From Massilioclostridium coli (GTDB lineage: Bacteria; Bacillota; Clostridia; Oscillospirales; Ruminococcaceae): 64,000 nucleotides of DNA. The notes below the pieces were generated by a model. That model had not been told where the DNA came from. It did not search any database and saw only the letters and a program-made list of their open reading frames with translations. Positions 34,701 through 37,935 of this stretch are shown here, piece after piece; within the stretch, counting starts at the first letter, position 1; every line of letters starts with the position of its first letter. A program made the translations under genes and the position numbers. Location of the stretch: assembly GCF_900095865.1 (NCBI RefSeq), contig NZ_FMIZ01000007.1, forward strand, positions 806,001-870,000, written 5' to 3'.

Positions 34701-36350
34701 ATGTTAAATCTTCATCAAGAGTATTGTACAGAAAAACTCGACGAAAACGGAGTTCTTGTGGATTTTCAAATCCATTGTCCTGACAATTTTAATTTTGCCT
34801 ATGATGTTGTAGACCGAATTGCCAGCCAGGAGCCTGACCGCAGAGCCATGATGTGGTGTAATGTGGAAGGGGAAGAGAAAATGTTCACTTTTGGTGAACT
34901 GAAAACCCTTAGTGATAAAGCAGCCAATGTTTTTTTATCCCATGGTATCAAAAAAGGGGATACTGTATTACTGATTTTAAAACGCCACTATGAGTATTGG
35001 TATACATTGCTGGGGCTGCATAAAATTGGCGCTGTTGCTATTCCTGCTACCCATCTGTTGACAACAAAGGACATCGTTTATCGAGTACAGTCCGCTGATA
35101 TTAAAGCGGTTGTTACTACACCGGATGGGGAAGTATCTGATTTTATTAATCAAGCAAAAGCGGAATGTCCAACCCTGCAAAAACAGTTTATTGTACGTCA
35201 GGATAAACAAGGTTTTATCAATTTAACCAAAGAAATAGAATCCGCTTCAGATGCTTTGGAACGGATTGAAGTAAGCAAAAACGATCCGATGTTGCTGTAC
35301 TTTACTTCTGGAACCACAGGGTATCCAAAAATGGTAGTGCATAATTATTCCTATCCATTGGCACATATTATTACAGCAAAATATTGGCAGCATGTAAATC
35401 CAGAAGGGTTACATTTAACCGTTTCTGAAACAGGCTGGGCAAAAGCGGCTTGGGGAAAAATCTACGGCCAATGGCTGATGGAAGCCGGTATTATGGTATA
35501 TGATTTTGATAAATTTGTTCCTACTGATTTGTTAGCTGTGATTGAAAAATATAAAGTAACTACTTTCTGCGCTCCTCCTACTATTTTCCGTTTCTTTATC
35601 AAGGAAGGAATGGGAAACTATGACCTGTCTTCCTTGGAATATGCCACCATTGCGGGAGAAGCATTGAACCTGGAAGTATATAAAAAATTCTTGGAAGTTA
35701 CTGGAATCAAATTGATGGAAGCGTTTGGACAGACAGAAACTACCGTTATTTTGGCAAACCTGTTCAACTTTAACAATAAGCCAGGCTCCATGGGAATCCC
35801 TTCTCCAATGTATCACGTGGATTTAGTGGATGAAAATTGTAATTCTGTTGCGCCAATGGAAGTTGGTGAAATTGTAGTGCGTCCACGGGAAGATGGTCCA
35901 CAATATGGGCTATTTGCCGGTTACTACAAAGATGAAGAACTGAATAAACAGGCATGGCGAGGTGGTGTATATCATACTGGTGATACCGCCTACCGTGACG
36001 AGGATGGTTATTATTGGTATGTTGGCCGTACCGATGATATTATTAAATCCAGCGGTTACCGGATTGGGCCTTTTGAGATTGAAAGTGTGTTGATGGAACA
36101 TCCTGCGGTTTTGGAGTGTGGCATTACTGGGGTTCCTGATGAAGTACGTGGTCAGGTAATCAAGGCTACGATTGTCTTGACTAGCGGCTATAAGCCATCT
36201 GATGCATTGGCAAAAGAGTTGCAGGACTATGTAAAACATGCTACTGCGCCATATAAATACCCACGTGTGATTGAGTTTGTGGATGAGCTGCCAAAAACCA
36301 TTAGCGGAAAAATTCGCCGTGTGGTTCTCCGTGGGGAAGAGAAAGATTAA
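34701..36350 (+). CDS. AMP-forming acyl-CoA synthetase
   Basis: 549 residues, ANL superfamily. The P-loop motif YFTSGTTGYPKM lies near 198-209, the A5 motif EAFGQTETT near 340-350, and the core TGDTAYRDEDGYYWYVGR near 427-444. The C-terminal SGKIRR near 538-543 has the catalytic Lys, a common acetylation site. It activates a fatty or short organic acid as acyl-AMP, then acyl-CoA. Overall length and motifs resemble medium-chain or acetate-type synthetases. An AAGGGGCAGATTT ribosome site precedes the ATG. The preceding gap has a hairpin-rich GC stretch but no clear promoter. Confidence 0.88.
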   Translation: MLNLHQEYCTEKLDENGVLVDFQIHCPDNFNFAYDVVDRIASQEPDRRAMMWCNVEGEEKMFTFGELKTLSDKAANVFLSHGIKKGDTVLLILKRHYEYWYTLLGLHKIGAVAIPATHLLTTKDIVYRVQSADIKAVVTTPDGEVSDFINQAKAECPTLQKQFIVRQDKQGFINLTKEIESASDALERIEVSKNDPMLLYFTSGTTGYPKMVVHNYSYPLAHIITAKYWQHVNPEGLHLTVSETGWAKAAWGKIYGQWLMEAGIMVYDFDKFVPTDLLAVIEKYKVTTFCAPPTIFRFFIKEGMGNYDLSSLEYATIAGEALNLEVYKKFLEVTGIKLMEAFGQTETTVILANLFNFNNKPGSMGIPSPMYHVDLVDENCNSVAPMEVGEIVVRPREDGPQYGLFAGYYKDEELNKQAWRGGVYHTGDTAYRDEDGYYWYVGRTDDIIKSSGYRIGPFEIESVLMEHPAVLECGITGVPDEVRGQVIKATIVLTSGYKPSDALAKELQDYVKHATAPYKYPRVIEFVDELPKTISGKIRRVVLRGEEKD

Positions 36351-36370
36351 TTTGTATTTTGTTTTTATGG

Positions 36371-36410
36371 AATACCCCCGGGCAACATCTTTTTGGTTGC
36401 AGGGGGTATT
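36371..36410 (+). terminator. Hairpin after acyl-CoA synthetase
   Basis: AATACCCCC (36371-36379) pairs with GGGGGTATT (36402-36410), extended inward by GGCAAC/GTTGC. There is no T-tract directly after, so it is a moderate terminator candidate. Confidence 0.45.
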
Positions 36411-36434
36411 ATAATAAGGCTAAAACAACGGAAA

Positions 36435-36471
36435 AAGGAGGTTTAGCACCAGATTTGGTGCGAAAGTGATG
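36435..36471 (+). promoter_or_regulatory. Split ribosome-binding site with intervening hairpin, pncB
   Basis: AAGGAGGT (36435-36442) is the only good ribosome site, yet it lies 26 bases from the ATG at 36469, far beyond normal spacing. Between them GCACCA-GATT-TGGTGC (36446-36461) folds into a perfect 6-bp hairpin. With the hairpin closed, the effective spacing drops to about 10 bases to ATG, or 7 to the GTG at 36466. Confidence 0.65.
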
Positions 36472-37935
36472 AGTATTAATTTGACAACTTCCCGTAATTT
36501 AACCATGTTAACCGATTTTTACGAGATTACCATGGCAAATGGCTACCTGGAATGTGGATTCCAGGATAAAGAGGCTGTTTTTGATATGTTTTTTCGGAAA
36601 GTTCCGGATAATGCTGGCTTTGCAATTTTTGCAGGGTTAGAGCAATTGATTACCTTTTTGGATAATTTAAAATTTTCGGAAGATGATCTGGAATATTTGC
36701 GAAAAAGCAAGATGTTCTCGGAGGAATTTTTAGATTATTTAGAAAACTTTACGTTTGATTGTGATGTCTGGTCCGTGCCAGAGGGGACTCCGGTATTTCC
36801 AAATGAGCCGGTTATTATCGTAAAGGGACCCATTATCCAGGCCCAATTTATTGAAACAATGCTGTTGACCACAGTAAACCATCAATCTCTAATTGCCACC
36901 AAAGCAAACCGAATTGTCCGGGCGGCACGTGGCAAAGAGGTAATGGAATTTGGTGCGCGTCGAGCACAAGGATATGATGCGGCTATTTATGGAAGCCGTG
37001 CCGCCTATATTGGCGGGTGTAGCTCCACCTCCTGCGTGATTTCCGCCAACGAATACGATATTCCAGTGGCTGGGACAATGGCACACAGTTGGATTCAAAC
37101 TTTTGATTCGGAATACGAAGCATTCAAATGTTATGCCAATATTTATCCAGACAACTGTATCTTCCTGGTGGATACTTACAATGTATTAAAATCCGGTGTT
37201 CCAAATGCTATCCGGGTGTTTGATGAAATCCTCAAACCAAAAGGAATTATACCAAAGGGCATCCGCATTGACAGTGGGGATATCGCTTATCTATCCAAAA
37301 AATCCCGTGCGTTATTGGATCAAGCGGGCTATCAGGATGTGAAAATTATTGCTTCTAACTCATTGGATGAAAATATTATCCGTGATTTACAGGAGCAGGG
37401 GGCTGCTGTTGATATTTATGCCGTAGGGGAAAATTTGATTACGGCAAAAAGTGCCCCAGTATTTGGAGGGGTATACAAATTATGTGCGGTGGAACACAAT
37501 GGTAAATTGCAACCACGGATTAAGCTCAGTGAAACGATTGAAAAAGTGAATTTACCCCATTTGAAAAAGCTTTACCGTTTTTACAGCAAAGAAACTGGAA
37601 GAAACGTAGCGGATTTGGTGGCTTTATGGGATGAAGAGATTAATGTGGAACATGGAATGACTATCTTTGACCCTAACGCAAGCTGGAAAAAGAAATTCCT
37701 TACCAATATTGAGAAAAAAGAATTGCTACAGCCGATTTTCCAACGGGGAAAACTGGTGTACCAGATGCCAAGTTTAGAAGAAATCCGCAACTATTGCATG
37801 GAACAAGTAGAATTGCTTTGGGATGAAGTAAAACGGTTTGAATTTCCACATAAATATTATGTAGACCTTTCTTTTAAATTGTGGGATTTGAAAAATTCTA
37901 TGCTATCCGATTTAGGGGCAAGAGGATTAGAGTAG
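36469..37935 (+). CDS. pncB: Nicotinate phosphoribosyltransferase
   Basis: 488 residues. It makes nicotinate mononucleotide from nicotinate and PRPP in NAD salvage. The N-terminal NLTMLTDFYEITMANGYLE, the central FGARRAQGYDAAIYGSRAAY near 163-182 and the PRPP-site region GIRIDSGDIAYLSKK near 265-279 match the family. The only plausible starts are GTG 36466 and ATG 36469, both separated from a strong AAGGAGGT by a hairpin. It is a single gene; a coiled-coil protein gene lies convergent downstream. Confidence 0.93.
   Translation: MSINLTTSRNLTMLTDFYEITMANGYLECGFQDKEAVFDMFFRKVPDNAGFAIFAGLEQLITFLDNLKFSEDDLEYLRKSKMFSEEFLDYLENFTFDCDVWSVPEGTPVFPNEPVIIVKGPIIQAQFIETMLLTTVNHQSLIATKANRIVRAARGKEVMEFGARRAQGYDAAIYGSRAAYIGGCSSTSCVISANEYDIPVAGTMAHSWIQTFDSEYEAFKCYANIYPDNCIFLVDTYNVLKSGVPNAIRVFDEILKPKGIIPKGIRIDSGDIAYLSKKSRALLDQAGYQDVKIIASNSLDENIIRDLQEQGAAVDIYAVGENLITAKSAPVFGGVYKLCAVEHNGKLQPRIKLSETIEKVNLPHLKKLYRFYSKETGRNVADLVALWDEEINVEHGMTIFDPNASWKKKFLTNIEKKELLQPIFQRGKLVYQMPSLEEIRNYCMEQVELLWDEVKRFEFPHKYYVDLSFKLWDLKNSMLSDLGARGLE

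Follow-up and report, generated by a model that had tools for sequence, protein, structure and literature searches.

How does a ribosome begin translation at a start codon whose only strong Shine-Dalgarno (SD) sequence lies 26 nt away, with a perfect hairpin in between? The question is raised by the leader of pncB, the gene for nicotinate phosphoribosyltransferase, in Massilioclostridium coli. The window is the whole stretch of DNA that was analysed, 64,000 nucleotides of contig NZ_FMIZ01000007.1, and its numbering is used throughout. The features on which the question turns are as follows.

34701 to 36350, plus strand: acs, a gene of the acyl-CoA synthetase family, directly upstream of pncB.
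36351 to 36468, plus strand: spacer of 118 nt from the acs stop to the pncB ATG.
36371 to 36410, plus strand: larger hairpin of the spacer (AATACCCCC ... GGGGGTATT; inner GCAAC/GTTGC), terminator-like or possibly stabilising a 3' end, with no clear T run.
36435 to 36442, plus strand: AAGGAGGT, an 8-nt perfect SD, read from the sequence against the anti-SD of the genome's own 16S genes.
36446 to 36461, plus strand: perfect hairpin GCACCA-GATT-TGGTGC, of 6 bp with a 4-nt loop, between SD and start.
36466 to 36468, plus strand: in-frame GTG, a possible alternative start, absent from the pncB start of the same-genus relative G001.
36469 to 37935, plus strand: pncB, 488 aa from the conserved ATG, matching NCBIfam NF006695.
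36486 to 36492, plus strand: AACTTCC in the pncB coding region, the partner of the SD in a competing fold, from folding predictions.

The unusual spacing has meaning only when the start codon is placed correctly. The pncB product matches NF006695 with 712.8 bits (cut-off 469), and the best NCBIfam matches of acs, MbcS and acetate-CoA ligase, are both below their cut-offs. The same-genus comparison consists of one relative, G001, whose pncB protein is 81% identical to that of the window in an alignment that starts at residue 1 (MSTNLISSRNLTML in G001, MSINLTTSRNLTML here); the DNA at the start reads ATGAGTACGAATTTA in G001 and ATGAGTATTAATTTG here. Because the ATG and the first codons align, ATG 36469 is taken as the conserved start of pncB, and judged by this alignment the assignment is sound. 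A wrongly placed start was considered and rejected: the ATG is conserved, and GTG 36466 is the sole ATG, GTG or TTG in frame back to the stop at 36421. The nearest SD-like match to the ATG is a 4-nt GGTG at 36457-36460.

The 16S genes of this genome terminate in GGATCACCTCCTTT (five copies), and AAGGAGGT is therefore an 8-nt perfect SD match, for which the duplex energy is computed as -11.6 kcal/mol. It is separated by TTA from the hairpin, which consists of GCACCA at 36446-36451, the loop GATT at 36452-36455 and TGGTGC at 36456-36461, and is followed by GAAA before GTG 36466. The distance from the T of AAGGAGGT to ATG 36469 is 26 nt, or 10 nt when the 16-nt hairpin is left out; counted from the last G of GGAGG, it is 27 nt, falling to 11 nt without the hairpin and to 8 nt for the in-frame GTG. 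The original prediction had placed the ribosome site 26 bases before the ATG, described the perfect hairpin and proposed that its removal restores the spacing; direct reading agrees with both positions, and the arithmetic holds within the range of the genome. That range comes from 347 ORFs, each 120 aa or longer, in 524 kb of sampled stretches of this genome, in which the distance from the last G of GGAGG peaks at 7-9 nt and is mostly about 4-11 nt, a peak that is partly built in as the SD was used in choosing the starts. The leader thus combines a strong SD that lies too far from a conserved start with a stable predicted hairpin that lies wholly between them and whose exclusion leaves a usable spacing.

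Such an arrangement is documented in phage T4. In gene 25, a strong SD lies 27 nt from the AUG at an intercistronic junction, and an intervening hairpin reduces the distance to 11 nt; probing and reporter assays demonstrated the effect, and the stem, conserved across about 30 phages, is confined to close T-even phages (PMC3014915). In gene 38, an intervening structure shortens the distance from 22 to 5 nt, as supported by mutations, and in both genes initiation falls when the structure is destabilised by mutation (PMC3014915); the comparison with gene 38 drawn in the original prediction is therefore correct. The pncB leader resembles gene 25 in the change from 27 to 11 nt, in its intercistronic position and in its restriction to a lineage, and resembles gene 38 in having its SD-AUG gap shortened by intervening structure. 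It differs from both in belonging to a bacterial chromosomal gene, in one species and known here from sequence alone, and from the phage gene 38 in its spacing as well. On the cellular side, the 30S subunit is reported to accommodate a hairpin of the Escherichia coli thrS leader without unfolding it (PMC3936740). The pncB hairpin is likewise proposed to stay folded on the 30S subunit, but unlike that of thrS it sits between SD and AUG. The thrS hairpin lies between an upstream single-stranded domain and a domain that contains both SD and AUG, and the thrS leader is an autoregulatory operator. A literature search for further bacterial hairpins between SD and start found only the T4 review (PMC3014915) and the thrS model paper (PMC3936740). 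By analogy, the best-supported explanation is that the pncB leader works like T4 genes 25 and 38, a resemblance in mode of action rather than an established membership in their class.

We put at about an even chance the reading of the pncB leader as a split ribosome-binding site, with the hairpin looping out an over-long gap. The 30S subunit would pair with AAGGAGGT while the 16-nt hairpin remains folded and looped out, and a start codon would come to lie at a usable distance, 11 nt for the conserved ATG or 8 nt for the GTG directly 5' of it. The hairpin would then be a fixed structural spacer that permits constitutive translation, with no switch involved. Its predicted energy is -8.0 kcal/mol alone and -9.4 kcal/mol with its neighbours. 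When the SD is held by 16S rRNA, the predicted hairpin probability is 0.87-1.00 in all six leader windows; formation of the hairpin in the cell, like the use of AAGGAGGT as the SD, is an inference. Several results weigh against the split-site reading: no relative shares the stem, which leaves no covariation, the class is not enriched in this genome, the leader in its entirety does not fold more strongly than shuffled sequence, and folds that compete with the hairpin are predicted.

How far chance could produce such a leader was assessed at two levels. Among shuffled gaps, 1.2% contain a perfect 6-bp hairpin, as do 2.4% of all 27-mers of the window, and 0.66% of these 27-mers have a fold that is as stable or more so; by itself, the hairpin is modest relative to chance (1-2% per 27-nt stretch). 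A strong SD (at least 7 nt) located 16 nt or more from the start, with no closer strong one, is found in 3/347 genes, pncB included, and a spacing-correcting hairpin stays the best reading because strong long-spaced SDs are so rare here. A far SD, no near SD and a spacing-restoring hairpin of at least 6 bp coincide in two genes against 1.05 expected from shuffles, and with at least 5 bp in five genes against 3.8 expected; in L065, the second 6-bp case, there is a different start that has a 7-nt SD. For a single gene the combination is unusual, yet in a genome-wide search it does not exceed chance. Since split sites are not enriched, this is a genome without split sites as a class, and the case for pncB stands on its own anatomy. 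The motif AAGGAGGT itself occurs 26 times in the 524 kb, 15 of them 5-10 nt ahead of the start codon of an ORF that is 60 aa or longer, and is therefore mostly used as a normal-distance SD. No split-site pattern was found in viral contigs, and a scan of genome contigs yielded just two distant homologs.

The leader differs from those of relatives. The order phosphatase, acs, pncB, rpsO, pnp is the same in G001, and acs lies beside pncB in no other locus compared. In G001, the acs stop overlaps the pncB start (AAATGA, an ATGA overlap; locus L003, 1480-1520), the entire 118-nt spacer with its SD and hairpin is missing, through either a gain here or a loss there, and pncB has GAGG as its SD in addition to the overlap. 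This suggests that pncB of the sister species is translationally coupled to acs, as is probable from the stop-start overlap, and that the coupling was lost in the genome of the window; the hairpin is part of a lineage-specific spacer standing where the sister species has the overlap. No hairpin of at least 6 bp lies between SD and start in any of 31 other pncB leaders (G001 and 30 further). In 29 of these an SD match of 4 nt or longer stands at 4-13 nt (5 nt or longer in 16 of them), although a few start choices in this survey were mechanical and may be wrong. The hairpin motif, with up to three mismatches allowed, is present in one of 298 genomes of the family, namely this one, and absent from the 297 others; on these sequences the feature is lineage-specific. 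The original prediction had regarded homologs that lack the hairpin and have a ribosome site at normal distance as a sign that the start lies elsewhere. The homologs do lack the hairpin and mostly have an SD at normal distance, but the conclusion about the start does not follow: because the ATG itself is conserved, the absence of the hairpin in homologs marks a lineage-specific feature rather than a misplaced start.

The main rival, possible though on the doubtful side, is that the hairpin is neutral and pncB is weakly translated from its ATG with a minimal SD, such as GGTG 36457-36460, or none, or else by ribosomes that come from acs, with AAGGAGGT left as a relic or a standby site. It draws on the chance frequency of the hairpin, the chance-level count of split sites over the 347 genes, the restriction of the feature to one lineage and the sister species, which manages with GAGG and the overlap. 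Moreover, 58/347 genes, about 17%, have no SD match of at least 5 nt at normal distance, so pncB could manage without one. Against it, chance is estimated to place an intact 8-nt SD closely upstream of a start in far fewer than 1 in 1000 leaders, and an unused one would be expected to decay.

Re-initiation is an unlikely alternative to the split site. The SD would serve a four-codon leader ORF (TTG GTG CGA AAG TGA, 36455-36469) with a stop that runs into the pncB ATG (TGATG), and terminating ribosomes would restart there after opening the hairpin. The reading frame and its 1-nt overlap are indeed present, and the sister species also has a stop-start overlap with an upstream gene. Such a frame easily arises by chance, however, the leader ORF is not conserved, and its TTG is 13 nt from GGAGG, an extreme among the spacings here (5/289 at 13).

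Regulation is very unlikely, in the form of a ligand, a protein or temperature moving the leader between the hairpin and folds that sequester the SD. When 16S rRNA is left out, the predictions include competing folds of similar energy: AACUUCC at 36486-36492 pairs with the SD, and GCUAAA at 36419-36424 with UUUAGC at 36442-36447, which opens the hairpin and lowers its probability to 0.10 in the window 36419-36489. Over its whole length, the leader shows no more folding than its shuffles (z -0.46); it is mainly the larger hairpin at 36371-36410 that makes the spacer fold strongly (z -3.49). An Rfam scan for riboswitch or leader families gave one chance match, far below the gathering score, and no match to a curated aptamer family, for NAD or otherwise; the loop has 4 nt, and there is no aptamer-sized domain. 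A NiaR-type regulator, sought by its 3H domain, is absent from this genome, and a control search found the domain in Bacillus subtilis and Thermotoga maritima. The SD lies outside the hairpin and its predicted accessibility is 0.22 to 0.23 over 30 to 45 C, with no release at moderate temperature, and an RNA thermometer is unlikely because the modelled hairpin probability exceeds 0.94 from 30 to 65 C. The switch also lacks conservation in relatives. The suggestion that NAD salvage is tuned by folding, through a ligand or temperature, thus found no support, and slightly less credence still is due to a chromosomal split site that tunes NAD salvage to a cellular signal through its competing folds, one with the hairpin formed and the SD free, the other with the SD bound to the coding region. 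The dyad, being perfect and intergenic, might also act as DNA, bound by a transcription factor, which is scarcely credible here: the exact dyad with a 3-9-nt spacer occurs at only one other site in the genome, the six near matches examined all lie inside long open frames, and a position between SD and ATG would be unusual for an operator.

If the hairpin works as a spacing corrector, pncB would provide a cellular counterpart of the initiation arrangement documented in phage T4. It would also serve as a warning that gene finders which require the SD to lie within about 12 nt can overlook starts of this kind or misplace them. The split-site reading would leave the picture of NAD regulation unchanged.

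Some observations concern the surroundings of the hairpin. The 118-nt spacer is single copy, with no further copies in its own genome in a check for mobile repeats. The 9-nt direct repeat ATTAATTTG brackets it at 36346-36354 and 36475-36483; judging by sequence, it might be an insertion mark, for which a target-site duplication was considered, or chance. The repeat is AT-rich, and one copy is inside pncB. A scan of the spacer for promoter and terminator consensus sequences gave no match; TATAAT occurs at 36410-36415, 3' of the larger hairpin, with no -35 match found. Among the other leaders, L031 has a 6-bp hairpin (TAAAGGTCACCTTTA) just 5' of its pncB SD (AAGGAG), about 14-28 nt upstream of the start and not between SD and start. 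In G033 (L004, 820-1470), the neighbour of pncB resembles, as judged by eye, an isochorismatase-type hydrolase, possibly the nicotinamidase pncA.
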